Shown here: in pieces, positions 55,652 through 63,961 of the stretch
How positions within the stretch are numbered: position 1 is the first letter of the stretch
Layout of the letters: the number at the start of each line of letters is the position of its first letter
NCBI RefSeq assembly: GCF_001593005.1
Contig: NZ_LQZQ01000045.1
Location: 806,001-870,000, forward strand
DNA from: Roseivirga ehrenbergii
GTDB lineage: Bacteria > Bacteroidota > Bacteroidia > Cytophagales > Cyclobacteriaceae
Length of the DNA stretch: 64,000 nucleotides
Reading direction: 5' to 3'
Program-made: the position numbers and the translations under genes
Notes under the pieces: generated by a model
Database searches by the model: none
What the model saw: only the letters and a program-made list of their open reading frames with translations
Told to the model about the DNA's origin: nothing

Positions 55652-56386
55652 ATGTTTAGACATCAGGGTAAAAGAAGAACGTTTAAGAACAACTTACGAA
55701 TCGCTATCGTGCTTTCTTTTGTGGCTGGAATTGTAAACTTAGCTGGATTTTTGGCTATACATCAGCTTACCACCAACGTTACTGGACATTTCGCTTTGTT
55801 CATCAATGATATTTTAGAACTTGAATTCTCTAAAGGCTTAGCCTACTTTCTCTATATCCTTTCCTTTCTTATAGGGTCTTTCACCTCAAGCCTGCTTATT
55901 GAATGGACGATGCGGACTAAAAAACTCAATATTTTCATTTTACCCACATTACTTGAATCTGCCATTCTACTACTTGTTGTTATACTAACAGATTTAACTA
56001 CCCTTCAATCGCCAAACACAATTGCCTGCATGCTACTTTTTGCTATGGGCGTGCAAAACTCATTCGTGACTAAAATATCGAATGCCATAGTAAGAACAAC
56101 CCACCTCACAGGGCTTTTTACTGATTTAGGCATCGAACTGTCACAGCTATTTTTTCTTAAAAAAGAACCCAATAACAAAAGCATCATTTCAACTATTAAG
56201 TTGAGAATCTACATCATCACCTTTTTCTTTTTAGGGGGAATATTTGGAGGCTTTCTTTATATGAAAATCCAGTTGAATGTACTGATCATAGCGGCCTCAA
56301 TTCTATTAGCTGGCCTGATTTACGATGATATGAGACATAGATTTTTACTGGCCAAACGCAAGTACCGCCACAAAAAGATGGCCTGA
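55652..56386 (+). CDS. DUF1275 (YoaK-like) membrane protein
   Basis: 244 residues with about six predicted transmembrane helices. The N-terminal GIVNLAGFLAIHQLTTNVTGHF block, a GSFTSSLLIEW segment in helix 2-3 and FAMGVQNSFVTKISNAIVRTTHLTG match the DUF1275/YoaK family. The function of this family is unknown. The C-terminus is basic (KRKYRHKKMA). It lies about 95 bp after dcd and probably has its own promoter. Confidence 0.88.
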   Translation: MFRHQGKRRTFKNNLRIAIVLSFVAGIVNLAGFLAIHQLTTNVTGHFALFINDILELEFSKGLAYFLYILSFLIGSFTSSLLIEWTMRTKKLNIFILPTLLESAILLLVVILTDLTTLQSPNTIACMLLFAMGVQNSFVTKISNAIVRTTHLTGLFTDLGIELSQLFFLKKEPNNKSIISTIKLRIYIITFFFLGGIFGGFLYMKIQLNVLIIAASILLAGLIYDDMRHRFLLAKRKYRHKKMA

Positions 56387-56748
56387 TACATACATGCTTC
56401 TAATTCGCGTTAAGTGCACAACAAAATAGGTGCTCGGCAAAGGCTTGCTTGATGCTAGGCAGGCAAGCACCTTTACCGCAGTGGGCAATTGAGCGCCAGA
56501 GGGTAATCTAACAGCAAGATAAACCAAAAGCAAAATGACCCCAAGTTCCGTCTAACAAAACCACCTAAAGAGAAAATCTCAACAAAGTGTCAATCAATAT
56601 TAGTGACCTGCGGATTTAAGGTGCAATTGCGAACTAATTAGTTTTTAAGATTCCTTTTTTTTTAAAAATGTTATCCTTAAAATTCCAAGGCTAATTTTCT
56701 GTTCCTATCGAGTTATTTTTGCTTTAGAAATCAAACATATTAATCGAA
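56387..56748. other. 362-bp gap with imperfect inverted repeat
   Basis: No ORF is supported. AGGTGCT (56428-56434) and AGCACCT (56466-56472) enclose further partial pairing (GCTTGC/GCAAGC); this stretch is richer in G+C than its surroundings. TATTTTTG at 56714-56721 is a -7 match for the small gene at 56749. Confidence 0.45.
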
Positions 56749-56970
56749 ATGGAAGAAATGTCCGATAGGGAAATGCTAGAATTTGTTTATAGCTCACAGG
56801 TCGTACTGATGGGAATGATTCAAAGAATTGAAAATCACTTGAGCAAAGACGATGAAGAGGGGTATCGTAAATCCGATACTCGTTCTCATCTGGAGGTTCA
56901 TGATTATCTTAAAATCAAAGTAGATCAGGTACAAACAGAGCTAAATATTAGGGCAATTCAAGAAGGGTGA
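56749..56970 (+). CDS. Small acidic protein of unknown function
   Basis: 73 residues, no signal or membrane segment, mostly helical and charged (for example RIENHLSKDDEEGYRKSD). No family recognised. In favour of a real gene are the TAnnTTTG box about 28 bp upstream, a compact frame with ordinary codon use, and the absence of overlap with any other gene. It sits at the left flank of the toxin-antitoxin region but shows no resemblance to known antitoxins. Confidence 0.5.
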   Translation: MEEMSDREMLEFVYSSQVVLMGMIQRIENHLSKDDEEGYRKSDTRSHLEVHDYLKIKVDQVQTELNIRAIQEG

Positions 56971-57043
56971 GTAATTTGATATTTACTCATTTTCATTAGT
57001 CTTTGATTCCATGAAGGAAAATAATATCTCTTTAAGAGGGAAA

Positions 57044-57538
57044 CTATTCTAGTTCTTTCTTTTTAAAGGGGTTCCTTACCTTTCTGGTAGAGTACTTCAC
57101 TTTTCTGTCAAGCTGATTTTTCCTGTAGTTTTCACTGGTAGACATTAAGTTCTTTTTCCATATCATGTTGACGATATAGATAGGTGCCCCAATGAAAATT
57201 GGTAATGAGAGTCCAGAAAGAGAAAGTTCTGGCGTTAGGTAATAACTTAAATTGAAGAATTGACCAAACGTACTACCAACTATAGCAATAAACAGTATCA
57301 GTGAATTACTTATGGTTAGATAGTGAGTGAATTTTGCTTTAGGATTCGCTTGGAAATAATTAAACTTTCGTATGTTTTGAATGATAAGAACCCCAATAAT
57401 TACCATCCAATAAATCCAAAATAACCAAATTCTTATCCCCCAAGGTTTATATTTTAATGCTTCAATATTTAGGAAAAGAATTATTACGGATAGACCAAGT
57501 AAGAAAATCGTTAAAAAAATTGTTCTTATCGTTTTCAA
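57044..57538 (-). CDS. Four-helix membrane protein of unknown function
   Basis: 164 residues. Four hydrophobic segments (approximately 7-27, 37-54, 72-92 and 105-125) are followed by a basic cytoplasmic tail rich in Lys and Arg (RKVKYSTRKVRNPFKKKE). No family recognised. The first segment could also act as a signal anchor. It stands alone between the small acidic gene and the repeat-flanked toxin-antitoxin locus; A+T content is high like that of the locus. Confidence 0.6.
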   Translation of the reverse strand: MKTIRTIFLTIFLLGLSVIILFLNIEALKYKPWGIRIWLFWIYWMVIIGVLIIQNIRKFNYFQANPKAKFTHYLTISNSLILFIAIVGSTFGQFFNLSYYLTPELSLSGLSLPIFIGAPIYIVNMIWKKNLMSTSENYRKNQLDRKVKYSTRKVRNPFKKKELE

Positions 57539-57786
57539 GAGAAAGAATGTATGTATAGTTATGGTTGATGATTCCGAAGTTAGTACTTTTTAGTAACTTA
57601 TTCTTTTCTTGGCGAGTATGTATCTTTTCATGCACATGTTATACTAATTACACCTGAGTATTAAGATCAGTCCGCACTGCAACTTTAAATCCGCATATCT
57701 GCAAATAATTAATCCGTAAAAAACTGATATATAGCCTTTTACGGCCTTGGTATTTTCGCCAAATTAGGTGTGCTAACAAATCCCAT

Positions 57787-57958
57787 CTCCTACCCGATTG
57801 TATCACAAAGGAACTACAAATCGGTTTCCAACCGATAGTTCCGTACTTAGTGAAAAACACCTTCAGGGGCACAGAACCAAAAAAGGCTCATCCGCAATTG
57901 CAAATGAGCCTTTTTAATGAATTTTCTTTCAGCTTATCTTAAACCACTTGGGTCAACC
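57787..57958. repeat. Left ~171-bp direct repeat flanking the AbiE locus (with 3' end of an M28 gene)
   Basis: Aligned with 59867-60037 at a constant offset of 2080 (2079 after one 1-bp gap), about 90% identical by eye. It holds, in order, a partly degraded CCTACCCGAT...palindrome, ATCGGTT-TCC-AACCGAT (57820-57836), a terminator hairpin AAAAAGGCTCAT...ATGAGCCTTTTT (57880-57915), and on the minus strand the codons E-V-D-P-S-G-L-R-stop, equal to the C-terminus of the M28 peptidase gene encoded 2 kb away. Identity ends abruptly at GTCAAC. Confidence 0.85.
57880..57915. terminator. Terminator hairpin in left repeat
   Basis: 12-bp stem AAAAAGGCTCAT / ATGAGCCTTTTT with a 12-nt loop; duplicate of the terminator serving the M28 peptidase gene. 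Confidence 0.7.
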
Positions 57959-57970
57959 TCTGGCTTTTAT

Positions 57971-57999
57971 TGTCACAAATTATTTATATTTTTGTGACA
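57971..57999. promoter_or_regulatory. Operator of the abiE operon
   Basis: TGTCACAAA (57971-57979) and TTTGTGACA (57991-57999) are perfect 9-bp arms around an A+T spacer. A -7-like TATTTTTG (57987-57994) lies inside, so a bound protein would block the promoter. AbiEi antitoxins are known to repress their own operons by binding inverted repeats; the site is 21 bp before the ATG. Confidence 0.65.
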
Positions 58000-58019
58000 G
58001 AAAACCAAGCAGCATACTG

Positions 58020-58613
58020 ATGCAAAGTGTCGAACAAAAAATAGAAAAACTAATCAAATCAAAACAAAGAGGCACTCTACTCTTTGCGGATGACTTTTTT
58101 GAATACGGTTCTTCAGATGCAATACGCCAAGCATTGGTAAGATTAGCGAATAAAGAAATAATCAGACGAGTCGCACAGGGAATTTATGTACGCCCTGTTG
58201 TTAGTAGTTATATCGGTGAAGTTATGCCAACTGCTGAACAGGTTGCTCTCGGAATTGCTAAGCGAGACAAAATAAAAATTGTTCCAACAGGGTCTCATGC
58301 TCTAAACAAATTAGGTCTTAGTACTCAAATACCTCTAAAGCTTGTGTATTTAACAGATGGTACTCCCCGAGAAATTCAAATAGGTAAAAGAACTATCAAA
58401 CTAAAAAAAACAACCCCAAAAAACTTAATGGCAAAAGGCAAGATTAGCAGTTTAGCTATTCAAGCATTAAAAGCGGTTGGACAAAAAGAATTAACAGAAG
58501 GTTTTGAAAAAAAAATCATTCAGCTTCTAAAAAAGGAAGAACAAAAAGAGTTAGAACATGATATTCCTCTAGCCCCTGTATGGATTAGAAAAATTATGCA
58601 AAAGGCACTATGA
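58020..58613 (+). CDS. abiEi: Type IV antitoxin, AbiEi family (DUF6088-like)
   Basis: 197 residues from the ATG at 58020; an in-frame TTG at 57948 would start inside the left repeat and is unlikely. The N-terminal winged-helix has LFADDFFEYGSSDAIRQALV and NKEIIRRVAQGIYVRP, and the C-terminal antitoxin part has PTGSHALNKLGLSTQ and LVYLTDGTPREIQIGKR, as in DUF6088/AbiEi proteins. It represses the operon and counteracts the AbiEii nucleotidyltransferase, whose gene overlaps it by 4 bp. Lys-rich and A+T-rich compared with the surrounding housekeeping genes, consistent with acquisition. Confidence 0.9.
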   Translation: MQSVEQKIEKLIKSKQRGTLLFADDFFEYGSSDAIRQALVRLANKEIIRRVAQGIYVRPVVSSYIGEVMPTAEQVALGIAKRDKIKIVPTGSHALNKLGLSTQIPLKLVYLTDGTPREIQIGKRTIKLKKTTPKNLMAKGKISSLAIQALKAVGQKELTEGFEKKIIQLLKKEEQKELEHDIPLAPVWIRKIMQKAL

Positions 58614-59602
58614 TCAAGTTTTTACAAATACCAGATAATGAAAAGAAAAAAATTTATCAAGATGTCTCTAACGAAATAGGGGTACCACCTCAAGCCGTTG
58701 AAAAAGACGTTTGGGTAACGCTCGCCCTCAAGATGATCTTCTCATCAGGTTTAGCTCCTCACTTTATTTTTAAAGGAGGAACATCATTGAACAAAGCTTT
58801 CGACTTGATAAACCGTTTCTCAGAAGATATAGACCTTGGGATTGATAGAAAATATCTTGGTTTTGAAGGCGATTTAAGCAAAGGGAAAATTCGGAAACTA
58901 AGACGAGCTTGTCACACTTTCGTTTCTGGTGAATTGATAGAATTATTAAAGGAACAACTAGACAAGCATGAAGTGGATAAAAGCTTGTACGAATTAGTTG
59001 TAGAAAACACAGAAATTTCAGACCAAGACCCAGAGACCATTTTGGTGAACTACAAATCACTTTATGAAACGAATGAAATTCTGTATCTACAACCAAAAGT
59101 AAAAATAGAAGTCAGTGCTAGATCATTAATAGAACCTTACCAAGACGTTGAAATCCAATCTTGGATAAACGAGCAATACCCAAGTGCCTTATTCTCAGAT
59201 GGTGGATTTTCTGTAAGTGCCACCGATCCTCAAAAGACATTTTTGGAAAAACTGATGTTACTACATGAAGAGTTTCAAAAACCAACGGAAAAAATCAGAC
59301 ACTTTAGAATGTCTAGACATTTTTATGATATTGGACAAATTCTAAAAACAGAGCATGGAAAATTGGCATTGGAAAATCACGAACTTTTCGAAAGCATCCT
59401 TGCCCATAGAAAAGTATTAACGCCAATGAAAACAACCAACTACGACACGCTTACTTTAGAATCCATTAACATTGTTCCTCCAAAAGAACACTTGGCTAAC
59501 TTTAAAGCAGATTATAAAGAAATGATGGCTACCATGATTCAAGGGGAATCTGAAGAATTTGAGGCGTTATTGAATAAGATATTAAAGAAATTGAACGGTT
59601 AA
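58610..59602 (+). CDS. abiEii: Type IV toxin, AbiEii/AbiGii nucleotidyltransferase
   Basis: 330 residues. Minimal nucleotidyltransferase of the DNA polymerase beta-like superfamily that, when unopposed, halts growth as phage defence by nucleotide transfer to cell RNA targets. Motif I is FKGGTSLNKAF, the catalytic D-x-D is in FSEDIDLGI, motif II is KIEVSARS, and the conserved Lys-containing helix is KTFLEKLMLLHEEF. All are intact, so it should be active. It is coupled to the antitoxin gene by an ATGA overlap and is followed 4 bp later by a broken hsdM remnant. Confidence 0.93.
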   Translation: MIKFLQIPDNEKKKIYQDVSNEIGVPPQAVEKDVWVTLALKMIFSSGLAPHFIFKGGTSLNKAFDLINRFSEDIDLGIDRKYLGFEGDLSKGKIRKLRRACHTFVSGELIELLKEQLDKHEVDKSLYELVVENTEISDQDPETILVNYKSLYETNEILYLQPKVKIEVSARSLIEPYQDVEIQSWINEQYPSALFSDGGFSVSATDPQKTFLEKLMLLHEEFQKPTEKIRHFRMSRHFYDIGQILKTEHGKLALENHELFESILAHRKVLTPMKTTNYDTLTLESINIVPPKEHLANFKADYKEMMATMIQGESEEFEALLNKILKKLNG

Positions 59603-59606
59603 TCAA

Positions 59607-59861
59607 ATGACTAAAGAGGAGCGATGAATGCCGATGCATTCCGTGATTATATGCGTTCATTTTTGTTTCTCAGATACTTATCTCATAACTACGAGGAATC
59701 AGCGAAAAAAGAATTGGGTAGAGACTATCCTAAAAGTCCTTCAAAAGATGATAGGCCTGACTTTGTAGTTCCTCCACCATTAGAAATATGGTTTCAAAAA
59801 AAACGAAGGTGATATCGTTGAATTCGAGAAGCAAATGCGAAAAAAGTGCATTACGTAATCA
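59607..59861 (+). pseudogene. Truncated, frameshifted type I restriction-modification hsdM remnant
   Basis: The readable part NADAFRDYMRSFLFLRYLS then ELGRDYP then LEIWFQ matches the N-terminus of type I DNA methyltransferase subunits. Several lesions are visible. The ATG at 59607 gives only MTKEER before a stop, as if about 20 codons were lost before AMNADAF; an A8 run at 59795-59802 is one base too long; the A6 run at 59839-59844 is one base too short, after which VHYVI becomes readable again; and the homology stops where the right-hand direct repeat begins (about 59862). A protein of 62 residues could still be made from 59624 but would lack the whole methyltransferase domain. It marks a former restriction-modification locus beside abiE. 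Confidence 0.75.
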
Positions 59862-59866
59862 ACCAA

Positions 59867-60037
59867 CTCCTACTCGATTGTATCGAGTAGGAACTACAAA
59901 TCGGTTTCCAACCGATAGCTCCGTACTTAGTGAAAAACACCTTCAGGGCATAGAACCAAAAAAGGCTCATCCGCAATTGCGAATGAGCCCTTTTAATAAG
60001 TTTACACTCTGTTTACCTTAAACCACTTGGGTCAACT
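59867..60037. repeat. Right ~171-bp direct repeat flanking the AbiE locus (3' end of M28 gene)
   Basis: Counterpart of 57787-57958. It contains the perfect palindrome CCTACTCGAT-TGT-ATCGAGTAGG (59869-59891), ATCGGTT-TCC-AACCGAT (59900-59916), the terminator at 59958-59994 and the last codons of the intact M28 peptidase gene. The first palindrome is intact here and degraded in the left copy. Confidence 0.85.
59958..59994 (-). terminator. Terminator of M28 peptidase gene
   Basis: AAAAAAGGCTCAT ... ATGAGCCCTTTT hairpin just downstream of the peptidase stop; the minus-strand transcript ends in a U-run. Confidence 0.75.
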
Positions 60038-61320
60038 CTTGTTGGCGTTTGTGCGCCAGAGATCATTCCTTCTGCAGCTTTAGCAATGGCTTTGATGGTG
60101 TTGGTCATATGTGCCATATCCAAAGTACTTACTTCATCAGTAGCTTTGTGATAGTCCTGATCAATATCGATTTGCGTAGTACTGATTGAGTGTGCAGGAA
60201 CGCCTAATCTAGCCAATGTAGCATTGTCAGATCTGTAGAATAAGTTCTGAGTTGGGTAAGGATCTGGGTAGAAAGTATATTCCGTTCCTTCCACCGCATC
60301 TTGTAATAATTTACCAAAGCTAGACTTCTCAAACCCCGTAATCCAAGCGGTGTTTGGTCCTTCTTTCGCTCCTTTTCCAATCATTTCAATATTGAACATG
60401 GCTACAATTTCATCTGGATTCAATTGCTCAGAGAAATGTCTTGAACCGTATCCGCCACTTTCTTCAGCTGTAAAGGCTACAAAAACAATGGTTCTTTCTG
60501 GCTTCTTGCCCGATGCGGCAAAGTATTTCGCCAATTCAATTACTGCTGTAGTTCCAGAAGCATCGTCATTAGCACCGTTGAAAAGGTTATCGCCTTCCAT
60601 ACCTTCACGAACACCTAAGTGATCATAATGTGCTCCAAAAAGAACGATTTCGTTGGCCCTGTTCCCTGTAATTTTTCCTGTTACGTTAGAAAGACTTTGT
60701 GCGGTTACCGCATTTTGCACTTCAATATCAACAGCTGTCACTGCTGTTAAATCAGATATTACCATTACCGTAGCATTGTCTGGGTCTAAAGCAACCACTC
60801 TGCTTCCACGTGATGAAAAGCCTTTGTAACGATTGAATAAATCTTTGTGTGCAGGATTTACCAATACCAAATTCTTGCCTGTTCCTCTTCTAATTTCATT
60901 GTAAGCGCTCTGAAAATTATCATCAGCACCGATAGTTCTTACATTCAGGTCGGCAACATTTGTCCAATCAAAGCCTTCTGAATTCGACATGGCCATCATA
61001 TCTGCTGCGTCAACAGCTTTTCCATTCAATGTAGCCGCCATGCTTTCAGGAGCAATCGAGTAAATATTAAACTGCTGATTGTAGCTGTCCATTCCTTCCA
61101 AGTACTCTAAACCTGCCTTTTTAAATTCTTCCTGAATAAATTGAGAGGCTTTTTCAATTCCTGGGGTAAAAATCATTCGACCTTCCATTTCATCGGAAGC
61201 CAAGGTGGTAACAACTCTTGTCACTTCATCCTGAGTGATCTCATAAGGCGTTTGGCAACTCGTAAAGCTTAGCGAGGAAACGATAAAAAATGTGATAAGC
61301 GATAAAATGGGCTTTTTCAT
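60013..61320 (-). CDS. M28-family zinc peptidase lipoprotein
   Basis: 435 residues from the ATG at 61320, immediately before the signal sequence KKPILSLITFFIVSSLSFTSC with a lipobox Cys; an ATG at 61371 would add 17 residues. A PA-like insert (about 100-215) precedes the catalytic domain. Metal ligands appear in order: GAHYDHLG, NGANDDASGT, FTAEESGGYG, NIEMIG and, near the end, DYHKATDE. The fourth ligand is Glu where many members have Asp. It is an aminopeptidase or related exopeptidase on the periplasmic face. Its last codons and terminator are duplicated on the far side of the abiE locus. Confidence 0.92.
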   Translation of the reverse strand: MKKPILSLITFFIVSSLSFTSCQTPYEITQDEVTRVVTTLASDEMEGRMIFTPGIEKASQFIQEEFKKAGLEYLEGMDSYNQQFNIYSIAPESMAATLNGKAVDAADMMAMSNSEGFDWTNVADLNVRTIGADDNFQSAYNEIRRGTGKNLVLVNPAHKDLFNRYKGFSSRGSRVVALDPDNATVMVISDLTAVTAVDIEVQNAVTAQSLSNVTGKITGNRANEIVLFGAHYDHLGVREGMEGDNLFNGANDDASGTTAVIELAKYFAASGKKPERTIVFVAFTAEESGGYGSRHFSEQLNPDEIVAMFNIEMIGKGAKEGPNTAWITGFEKSSFGKLLQDAVEGTEYTFYPDPYPTQNLFYRSDNATLARLGVPAHSISTTQIDIDQDYHKATDEVSTLDMAHMTNTIKAIAKAAEGMISGAQTPTRVDPSGLR

Positions 61321-61438
61321 GGTGTAATAATCAATTTGTTTACGGGGTGAATTTAGGATAATTTTCATCAATCCTTGCTACCGCTGATGTCATTCAAAGC
61401 TTTTGCTTCAAAGGGTTTTAAGCTAAATAAAAGCAGCT

Positions 61439-61477: not shown

Positions 61478-63961
61478 TTGTCATTCGATCCGCATTCCGT
61501 TCAGCTTCCAGTTACCGAAATTATTGAGGATGTGCGCCAGCACCTGAGCAAAGGAAATACGCTGATCGTAAATGCACCTCCGGGAGCTGGAAAAAGCACG
61601 CTTCTTCCCCTCGCCTTGCTGAATGAGCCGTGGCTAGAAGGAAAGAAGATATTGATGCTGGAACCTCGAAGATTGGCGGCTAGAACCATTGCAGAACGCC
61701 TCTCCTATTTTTTAGAAGAGCCTGTCGGAAAAACAGTCGGTTTTCGAATTCGGTTTGAAAACAGAACTTCTGAACACACTAAAATAGAAGTACTTACGGA
61801 AGGAATTCTCACCCGAATGATCCAAAGTGATAATGCTTTGGAGAATGTGGGCTTGGTTATTTTTGATGAATTTCACGAACGCAGCATCCATGCAGATGTA
61901 GCCTTGGCACTCTGCCGCGAAGCCCAACAAGTTTTGCGTAGCGATTTGAGGATTATGGTCATGTCGGCCACGCTGAATATGCCGCAATTAACTTCGCTAT
62001 TGAAAGCTCCTGCCATAGTCAGTAAAGGCAAGCAATATCCAGTTGAAGTGCGTTACGAAAACGATATTGATGAATTTTCAATGGCCGAGCTTTGTGCCAG
62101 AACAGTAATTAAAGCCGCAAAAGCCCATGAAGGTGACATTCTGGTTTTCTTGCCCGGCCAGCGGGAAATCCATACCGCCAACGAAATTTTAAGGAGAGAA
62201 CTACGTGGATTTTCTATTCACATGCTCTACGGTTCGCTGCCCCAAAGGCAACAAGCCGCAGCCATTTTACCAGATAGAAATGGAAATCGAAAAGTAGTTT
62301 TAGCCACTTCCATTGCCGAAACCAGTTTGACCATTGAAGGTATTAAAGTAGTGGTCGATAGCGGTTTTGGACGCACCTCTAAATTCGACCCTAACTCTGG
62401 CTTGTCTCGACTAGAAACGGTTCGTATTTCAAGAGATTCAGCCGACCAACGGGCAGGAAGAGCTGGCCGATTAAGTTCAGGCGTTTGTTATCGCATGTGG
62501 TCTACGGTAACCCAACAACGATTAACCGAGCACATTACCCCCGAAATTCTTGAAGCGGACTTGGCCTCTTTGGTACTTGACATGTCGCAATGGGGCATAA
62601 CGGATGTGCAGCAAATGACTTGGCTTACGCCTCCTCCGAAAGGCCCTTTAGCGCAAGCCACCGATTTGTTGCATCAATTAGAAGCATTAGAAAACGGCAG
62701 AATCACAGCGCATGGCAAGAAGATGCTCCGTTTGCCTTGTCATCCACGAATTGCGCACATGCTGCTGATGGCTGAAGAAGATGATCAATTGGAATTAGCC
62801 ACTGACATTGCCGCTTTATTAGAGGAAAGAGATCCGCTGGGTCGAGAGGCAGGCATTGACATCAACACCCGAATTGAGGCGCTGAGAATCCACAGGCGAG
62901 AACAACGAGACAATCGTAAAATGGGGAGGATTGAGAAAATTGCGGAGCAGTATCGTAGTCTTTTCAATATTGAACCCGACAATAGCAGTGTTGATCCATT
63001 TGAAACGGGCGTACTCATTACCCGTGCTTACCCCGAAAGAATCGCCTTTGCGCGCCCTGGCAACAATGCCCAATTCCAACTTTCCAACGGCCGCTATGCC
63101 ATGGCAGGCCACCGAGAAGACTTGGCAAATGAACCTTGGTTGGCCATTTGCCATATTGACGCCCGTGAAGGTATGGGCAAAATTTTTATGGCTTCACCTT
63201 TGAACCCACGCGATTTATCGCCTTTGGTAAAAGAAACGGAAGTTATTACTTGGGATACCAGTGAAGGTGGCCTAATTGCCACCAAAGATTTACGCATTGG
63301 CAGCATAGTATTGCAAAGCAAACCTCTGCCATCACCAGATGAAAGTCATAAAGTAGCTGCCATTTCCGAAGCATTAAAAAAGGAAGGTGAACAACTTTTA
63401 GATTTTAACGAAGATGTTCAGCAATGGCAAAATAGAATTCTTAGTTTGAGGAAGTGGAATCCGCAAGAACAATGGCCAGAAGTAAGTGCATCTAGCCTCT
63501 TGCAAACCAATGCAGAATGGTTGAGTCCTTACTTGGCCAATGTAAAAAGGCCAGAGGATTTAAAGAAAATCAACTTAAAAGAAGTGTTGCAACACAGCCT
63601 CACTTTTGAACAACAACAAAAATTAGATAAGCAGGCTCCAACGCATTTGACCGTACCGAGTGGTTCTAAAATTAAGCTGATGTACCGCGACAATGCTGAG
63701 CCGCCTGTATTGGCCGTTCGCATTCAGGAAGTATTTGGTTTGGCGGAAACACCAAAGGTGAATGAAGGCAAGCAGTCTATTTTACTGCACCTGCTGTCCC
63801 CCGGCTTTAAGCCTGTTCAAATCACTTCGGATCTAAAAAGCTTTTGGTCAGATGCTTATTTTGAAGTGAAGAAAGAACTGAAAAGACGTTACCCTAAACA
63901 CGTTTGGCCCGATGACCCTTGGAACGAACCTGCGATTAAGGGAGTAAAAAGGAAAAAATAA
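61478..63961 (+). CDS. hrpB: ATP-dependent helicase HrpB
   Basis: 827 residues, family length. DEAH/RHA-type helicase. Walker A PPGAGKSTLLPLALL, DEFHERS as the DEAH box variant (D-E-F-H), motif III MSATLN, motif V ATSIAETSLTIEGI and motif VI QRAGRAGR are all in order. The C-terminal HrpB domain is marked by KWNPQEQWPEVS and by the closing KELKRRYPKHVWPDDPW. The start is a TTG at 61478, since no ATG lies upstream of the conserved core. Its role in the cell is poorly defined; it is divergent from the M28 gene. Confidence 0.95.
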   Translation: MSFDPHSVQLPVTEIIEDVRQHLSKGNTLIVNAPPGAGKSTLLPLALLNEPWLEGKKILMLEPRRLAARTIAERLSYFLEEPVGKTVGFRIRFENRTSEHTKIEVLTEGILTRMIQSDNALENVGLVIFDEFHERSIHADVALALCREAQQVLRSDLRIMVMSATLNMPQLTSLLKAPAIVSKGKQYPVEVRYENDIDEFSMAELCARTVIKAAKAHEGDILVFLPGQREIHTANEILRRELRGFSIHMLYGSLPQRQQAAAILPDRNGNRKVVLATSIAETSLTIEGIKVVVDSGFGRTSKFDPNSGLSRLETVRISRDSADQRAGRAGRLSSGVCYRMWSTVTQQRLTEHITPEILEADLASLVLDMSQWGITDVQQMTWLTPPPKGPLAQATDLLHQLEALENGRITAHGKKMLRLPCHPRIAHMLLMAEEDDQLELATDIAALLEERDPLGREAGIDINTRIEALRIHRREQRDNRKMGRIEKIAEQYRSLFNIEPDNSSVDPFETGVLITRAYPERIAFARPGNNAQFQLSNGRYAMAGHREDLANEPWLAICHIDAREGMGKIFMASPLNPRDLSPLVKETEVITWDTSEGGLIATKDLRIGSIVLQSKPLPSPDESHKVAAISEALKKEGEQLLDFNEDVQQWQNRILSLRKWNPQEQWPEVSASSLLQTNAEWLSPYLANVKRPEDLKKINLKEVLQHSLTFEQQQKLDKQAPTHLTVPSGSKIKLMYRDNAEPPVLAVRIQEVFGLAETPKVNEGKQSILLHLLSPGFKPVQITSDLKSFWSDAYFEVKKELKRRYPKHVWPDDPWNEPAIKGVKRKK

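Follow-up and report, generated by a model that had tools for sequence, protein, structure and literature searches.

An abiE pair and a broken hsdM gene in the marine bacterium Roseivirga ehrenbergii lie between two direct repeats, each of which contains the 3' end and terminator of the neighbouring M28 peptidase gene. Our preferred reading, which we hold as a whole at a probability of about 0.5, is that incoming DNA with an M28 end brought along attached itself to the resident gene and displaced the old end outward, and that the interval between the DUF1275 and M28 genes is a small defence-gene hotspot. Homology-assisted capture at such a hotspot is likelier than the insertion of an integrase island. 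The window referred to throughout is the whole 64,000-nucleotide stretch analysed, positions 806,001 to 870,000 of contig NZ_LQZQ01000045.1 (assembly GCF_001593005.1), and positions are counted from its first letter.

Repeats and cargo beside the 3' end of M28

Repeat finding and a whole-genome search aligned the two repeats, R1 and R2 (Table 1), over 175 bases at 89% identity (E = 3.5e-60). This confirmed the first-pass annotation, which had described direct repeats of about 171 bp and about 90% identity framing abiE and a broken hsdM and had placed them correctly to within 4 bases. R1 and R2 were the only long copies among seven matches to the repeat in the 4.24 Mb genome. The remaining five were two inverted terminator hairpins at the same place and three matches to the palindromic head of the repeat on contig C49, of 54 bases each at 76% identity. 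Read on the plus strand, each repeat consists of a 60-base two-hairpin palindromic element, a spacer of 35–36 bases, a terminator hairpin and the end of M28, whose last seven codons and stop (V-D-P-S-G-L-R-stop) are encoded on the minus strand. The minus-strand fold of 59860–60037 (178 bases) had an energy of -64.5 kcal/mol (z = -5.4), and the main terminator, which the terminator scan missed, was clear in it; fold and sequence comparison together bore out the earlier description of palindromes, a terminator and the last peptidase codons in each repeat. The M28 gene is intact, with its working end supplied by R2. R1 stops after the same M28 codons, and the predicted abiE operator starts 13 bases beyond.

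Table 1. Positions of the repeats, their parts, the cargo and the flanking genes in the window
Feature	Position	Strand	Basis and remarks
DUF1275 gene, left flank of variable interval	55652..56386	+	ORF and profile searches, relatives
R1, outer repeat copy	57783..57958		Repeat finding, genome search, alignments; read as displaced native M28 end
Two-hairpin palindromic element in R1	57783..57842	+	First hairpin has the same decay as the G005 copy
Terminator hairpin in R1	57879..57915	-	A- and T-runs on both sides; possibly bidirectional
Displaced last seven codons and stop of M28 (VDPSGLR*)	57934..57957	-	Sequence comparison
Inverted repeat TGTCACAAA-N11-TTTGTGACA upstream of abiEi; predicted AbiEi operator	57971..57999	+	Sequence only
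abiEi, DUF6088-type antitoxin, predicted repressor, 197 aa	58020..58613	+	ORF and profile searches
abiEii, nucleotidyltransferase toxin, 330 aa	58610..59602	+	ORF and profile searches
hsdM remnant	59607..59860	+	Keeps a start; internal loss and shifts of frame; ends two bases short of R2
R2, inner repeat copy with working M28 end	59863..60037		Repeat finding, alignments; read as imported
M28 terminator hairpin in R2	59958..59994	-	Repeat finding, fold
M28 peptidase gene	60013..61371	-	Longest frame; probable start 61321
hrpB helicase gene, right flank	61478..63961	+	ORF and profile searches, relatives

The abiEi product matched PF19570 (DUF6088, E = 6.3e-73) and PADLOC AbiEi (E = 5.5e-69) and scored below the cut-offs of Pfam AbiEi_3_N (21.5 bits vs 26) and NCBIfam TAA_AbiEi (25.5 vs 150). 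For abiEii, matches were found to PF08843 (E = 1.5e-38, 133.5 bits vs a cut-off of 22.5) and PADLOC AbiEii (E = 4.8e-95). The two genes form one operon with abiEi upstream and a four-base overlap. In studied AbiE systems, AbiEi represses and neutralises and AbiEii causes growth arrest (PMC3985639, PMC7319586); by analogy, the window AbiEi would repress and neutralise, and AbiEii would stop growth, possibly limiting phage. A DNA counterpart of 57972–59595 at 73% identity was found in a genome of another family (G544), without hsdM and with an abiEii that changes frame near its end. Because this counterpart begins at the operator, the abiE unit is considered complete in the window, and the operator and the two genes together appear to travel as a single unit.

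The hsdM remnant aligned, with broken frames, to approximately residues 21 to 96 of a 542-residue HsdM (L207); the alignment was printed from residue 6 onward, but its opening positions correspond to the abiEii end and were discounted. At 59607, in a different frame from the remaining remnant, lies a start codon opening the HsdM N-terminal sequence MTKE. Since hsdM is cut off two bases before R2, some cargo has been lost. The G+C content was 35.2% for the cargo, 40.7% for M28 and 37.1% for DUF1275. A fixed partnership of abiE and hsdM was not seen: a 62-residue HsdM piece matched none of 25 AbiEii loci (each with no more than about 1.5 kb of flank), and the AbiE unit nearest to that of the window (L251) had no match to full HsdM within the 19.5 kb examined. 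Phage and plasmid origins of the cassette were likewise rejected: no phage record matched 57650–60040, and the seven plasmid records that did so matched over about 100–117 bases, in hsdM only. No AbiEii relatives were found among viral contigs in a search seeded by exact peptides, which detects close kin only, and the other 18 genus genomes gave three weak AbiEii matches and no close one. Sequence searches of solved structures returned nothing for AbiEii or AbiEi, and a promoter scan found four sigma-70-like sites vs 7.1 expected.

The M28 site in relatives and the two repeat copies

A search of 19 genus genomes with R1 gave matches in four, namely the window's own genome, G005 (a single copy at 84% identity), G014 (a single copy at 94%, truncated to 80 bases, with the palindromic element absent at the site) and G003 (a 47-base terminator-like piece). 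The unit of terminator and gene end was found at the M28 locus among these 19 genomes; further matches were the G003 piece and, elsewhere in the G012 genome, a match with two mismatches to the 20-base gene end. M28 itself was present in 57 of 59 genomes at the family level. Its surroundings were read in ten genus relatives (by eye in the eight besides G005 and G014), and M28 was adjacent to DUF1275 in only two of these, G005 and G014, which are the nearest species compared and lack this abiE. The G005 interval contained hsdM, hsdS, a Schlafen/RecG-C-like gene and an EcoAI-like hsdR (791 bits vs a cut-off of 550), followed by one repeat and M28, whereas in G014 a REP-associated tyrosine transposase was followed by the cut repeat and M28. 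Three species thus had three different contents between DUF1275 and M28.

These observations agree with the expectation of the first-pass annotation that relatives without abiE should hold a single repeat copy, which was the case at both comparable sites (2/2), though both hold other insertions. The contrary pattern it had named, both copies in a relative without abiE, was seen in neither (0/2), and the full type I restriction–modification system it had suggested looking for at the same spot is present in G005. Its proposal of a larger, collapsed island fared less evenly: the end of hsdM at R2 indicates some collapse, but the HsdM of the G005 restriction genes differs from the window's remnant, so the window is not simply a collapsed G005-type island. 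On the outer side, 56431–57782 was mostly without a genus counterpart, with matches limited to short repeat-like pieces; since nothing long in the genus corresponds to the sequence left of R1, the native place of R1 could not be checked there.

To determine which repeat copy is the newcomer, R1 and R2 were compared with the copies in G005 and G014. Over the 80 bases shared by the four sequences, R1 agreed with G014 at 75 positions and with G005 at 74, and R2 at 69 and 70 respectively; R1 and R2 agreed with each other at 69, and G005 with G014 at 73. Where R1 and R2 differ, G014 sided with R1 at eight sites and with R2 at two, and G005 at seven and three; over the first 60 bases G005 sided with R1 at six such sites and with R2 at one. 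Private changes numbered seven in R2 vs one in R1 (two-sided p = 0.07). Those of the window lineage numbered 8/80 up to 60037 vs 14/613 beyond (p = 0.002), and their excess relative to the two other lineages gave p = 0.016; seven gap columns at the alignment end were excluded from the counting of private changes. Non-coding DNA evolves faster anyway, which is allowed for in the p = 0.016 test, unlike the p = 0.002 test. The tests were chosen after seeing the data and use few sites and two relatives with the repeat.

Because R1 resembles the relatives' gene end better, it is probably the displaced inherited M28 end, with R2 the imported one. A decaying spare copy would show the opposite pattern, as it is R2, still ending M28, that is the more diverged. 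The replacement gene end proposed in the earlier annotation gains support in that the sequence signal marks the M28-attached copy as the newcomer. The join probably lies near the last codons of M28, where R1 stops. Beyond 60110, identity to both relatives was ordinary; no long M28 piece therefore came along, and transfer of such a piece with the cargo is unsupported.

Origin of the locus

In the sequence of events that we favour, the incoming DNA would have carried abiE, a segment with hsdM and a version of the M28 gene end slightly different from the resident one. One of its ends would have joined the resident M28 at or beside the last codons; at the other, immediately before the abiE promoter, the junction would have formed with no long stretch of homology. 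Instead of being replaced, the original M28 end would have moved to the outer side of the cargo, surviving there as R1, and M28 would henceforth have ended in the imported R2. The restriction part would later have disappeared as far as R2, while abiE, which has a promoter of its own, remained. The newness of the copy, the joining of the ends and the order of events are what we infer; no donor of the incoming DNA was found.

The first 60 bases of each repeat are a member of a dispersed, low-copy palindrome family. The core CTCGATTGTATCGAG occurred exactly 4, 4, 2 and 3 times in four of the 19 genomes (13 in all), and its reversed control not at all. When all 13 sites were aligned in register by eye the first hairpin was common to them, while the second was variable and in some imperfect. 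Contig C49 of the window genome has a ParE-type pair and a NACHT gene interspersed with element copies, and at the equivalent place in G005 an AbiJ-type gene (PADLOC PDC-S32, E = 2.5e-106) replaces the NACHT gene. Eight other element sites had mostly ordinary neighbours, with one near a pair resembling a PIN-type toxin–antitoxin. The palindromic element is a general intergenic element that is also found at the borders of two variable defence regions. Four Y1 transposase matches were present in the genome (three over the cut-off), none within 20 kb of the listed element copies; G014 has a transposase at the site, yet the repeat there is without the palindrome. An integron-like cassette array at C49 was considered and is probably not present, the repeats there being two separate hairpins, unlike attC. 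The REP-like part of the boundary described in the first-pass annotation is a dispersed but low-copy element, with the terminator and gene end located at M28. The high-copy intergenic element that this annotation had named as contrary evidence was rejected for the repeat as a whole, since there are two long copies in the genome, a single corresponding site in G005 and a truncated copy in G014.

The join is placed to within some 20 bases of the M28 end, more tightly than homologous exchange ordinarily requires, and so speaks for an integrase island that used the M28 end as its attachment site and carried a replacement end, with R1 and R2 as attachment sites, a core of 20 identical bases (CTTAAACCACTTGGGTCAAC), and later deletion of the integrase and most of the cargo. 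A join at the last M28 codons is better explained in this way than by the capture that we prefer, and the exact flanking of the cargo, the intact M28, the single-copy sites of the relatives and the distribution of the core (at M28 in 4 of 19 genus genomes, twice in the window's own, and elsewhere only as the two-mismatch match in G012) would all fit. Yet no integrase or recombinase gene lies between R1 and R2, the three PF00589 matches in the genome lie either on other contigs or, in the nearest case, at a distance of 153 kb, and the repeat greatly exceeds the usual length of a core. Among the identified genes of the G005 and G014 cargo there is likewise no integrase, and a second repeat is missing at both of those insertions. 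The integrase-type island put forward in the first-pass annotation is accordingly considered unlikely.

A prior tandem duplication of the gene end, by slippage or unequal exchange, with cargo inserted between the copies later, would account for direct repeats sharing the same left edge, and direct repeats with such palindromes do exist elsewhere in the genome. However, the 11% divergence between R1 and R2 is as large as that of the region between species, R2 is the more diverged although needed to end M28 (the reverse of a decaying spare copy), and relatives with two copies and no cargo numbered 0/2, which makes this order of events distinctly unlikely. The least probable of the explanations weighed here is that the palindromic element itself drives the variation, exchange between its copies shuffling short cassettes so that abiE came and hsdM went. 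The stop of hsdM two bases before the element would be consistent with this, as would C49, where the ParE-type toxin–antitoxin pair lies between element copies in 335-base direct repeats (97%) and the neighbouring gene is the one that differs in G005. Exchange confined to the palindromic heads would nonetheless not duplicate the terminator and M28 codons, and the element is absent from the G014 site and also stands beside ordinary genes at the eight further places read by eye.

If capture with displacement of the resident M28 end is right, the locus is a readable fossil of a defence module entering a chromosome without its own integrase, in which the old gene end left behind marks the native side. 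The module would be tolerable, as the peptidase keeps an intact end and the toxin–antitoxin pair brings its own promoter behind a terminator. A broader conjecture, which we regard as quite doubtful, is that the last M28 codons, terminator and palindrome form a standing entry point for integrase-free defence cassettes, newcomers bringing their own gene end and leaving the old one as a countable scar, with the dispersed palindrome marking cassette borders at several Roseivirga places.

Predicted AbiEi operators and comparison with known systems

Operator-type inverted repeats recur across the phylum with other arms. A GTCnnA inverted pair was assigned by script to 35 of 57 distinct AbiEi, the other 22 having another arm or none; in shuffled upstream regions the script assigned a mean of 0.06 of 57, and at most 2. 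One study names the third helix as the AbiEi recognition helix (PMC3985639), and the placement predicted here for DUF6088 proteins is carried over from AbiEi. At one position of this predicted helix, GTCAC arms were accompanied by arginine (10/10), GTCCC arms by lysine (9/9), GTCAG arms by aspartate (3/3) and GTCGC arms by a small residue (12/12; N 5, S 4, G 2, A 1), and one further assigned AbiEi had GTCAA arms with alanine. The four arm classes thus matched residue type in 34/34, compared to a mean of 9.8 and at most 19 under residue shuffles, which ignore kinship. Fifteen of these 34 came from loci fetched after the pattern was noticed, with five arginines and one lysine as expected; the nine later-fetched GTCGC loci comprised six with the N or S already known from the first set and three with G or A, the small-residue class being widened afterwards to take in the latter.

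Arginine also pairs with GTAAC arms (L212, L214, L222 and L243; hand-assigned), so the correspondence falls short of a one-letter code. When the helix columns were left out of tree building, 12 changes were required to account for the arm types, including those assigned by hand; the independent pairs on well-supported branches numbered only 2, 1 and 2, all in agreement and too few for a test, the clearest being L218 (R, GTCAC) beside L215 (S, GTCGC) with support of 87. The helix residue appears to track the operator arms, in a correlation partly confounded by kinship. Among the search matches listed, no title or abstract opening concerned an AbiEi residue–operator correspondence. This lead lies outside the original finding and is the most interesting one to come from the locus; if confirmed, it would predict the operators and cross-talk of many AbiE-type systems from sequence.

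The window pair resembles the AbiE type IV toxin–antitoxin system (PMC3985639, PMC7319586) in its overlapping abiEi and abiEii, helix-turn-helix antitoxin, nucleotidyltransferase toxin and promoter inverted repeat. It differs in that its antitoxin is DUF6088-type, under the AbiEi_3_N and TAA_AbiEi cut-offs, and in that its operator is one inverted repeat with arms 11 bases apart, whereas the Streptococcus promoter is described with 11-base arms 27 apart.

As regards the mode of entry, displaced 3' ends are described at T6SS and rhs loci, where homology-facilitated illegitimate recombination has been proposed (PMC5361080). There, as here, new DNA joins a conserved gene on one side and the old end is pushed outward, but the displaced piece at those loci is a toxin or immunity gene under selection, compared to seven codons and a terminator in the window. 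Cargo at a protein-gene end, repeats and a gene kept intact are shared with SGI1 at the trmE 3' end, and dusA elements also supply a new gene end; elements of both types carry integrases (PMC8409611), unlike the window cargo. The small E. coli H47 genomic island likewise lies between direct repeats without its own recombinase, and is reported to have been shown to excise (PMC5426353). Hotspots without mobility genes, 27% of the hotspots in one survey (PMC5635113), also have differing defence cargo between the same core genes, and the identified genes of the window and of G005 likewise include neither an integrase nor an IS; the comparison here differs in covering three species, one with a REP-associated transposase. 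The locus is no new type of system, and illustrates an instructive, though not unprecedented, way in which defence genes probably enter a genome.

Content of the DUF1275–M28 interval and its neighbourhood

The 1.35 kb between DUF1275 and R1, the first of the direct repeats framing abiE in the window, contains two small frames that matched no known family. This stretch is bounded by two palindromes forming an inverted pair, and its matches in the rest of the genus were short repeat-like pieces only. In G014, one of the two nearest related genomes, the DUF1275–M28 interval holds a gene for a REP-associated tyrosine transposase, flanked on each side by a GTTCGCACTTGCAGTGCGGA-type repeat. In G005, the other of these genomes, dcd and DUF1275 are separated by a histidine kinase and its paired response regulator, and the window lacks this pair at that position. 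The same genome carries a Schlafen/AlbA_2 plus RecG-C-like gene within its type I restriction operon at the DUF1275–M28 interval, with hsdS on one side and hsdR on the other.

Coordinates of the features described
Feature	Location
DUF1275–R1 stretch	window 56431-57782
Inverted palindrome pair	window 56609-56638, 57666-57695
Inverted repeat 5' of abiEi	window 57971-57999
Transposase gene	G014 L039 5600-6450
Kinase–regulator pair	G005 L050 6399-7860
Schlafen/AlbA_2 plus RecG-C-like gene	G005 L050 707-2152
Second variable region	L048, G000 C49:180000-199000; L200, G005 C33:333000-349000

A second variable region

A second variable region follows a conserved gene of 1231 residues. Its content differs by species, with a NACHT protein in the window's own genome (G000) and an AbiJ-type PDC-S32 protein in G005, while a ParE-type toxin–antitoxin pair is common to both. 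Repeated modules between its genes contain the palindromic element that also heads R1 and R2.

Operator arms and the AbiEi helix

Across the window and the AbiEi loci L158-L182 and L208-L250, the arms of the inverted repeat 5' of abiEi correlate with one residue of the predicted recognition helix. The 57 distinct AbiEi comprised 34 in four arm classes, 1 singleton and 22 with another arm or none. Within the four classes, arm and residue agreed in 34/34: the residue was R for GTCAC arms, K for GTCCC, one of N/S/G/A for GTCGC and D for GTCAG.
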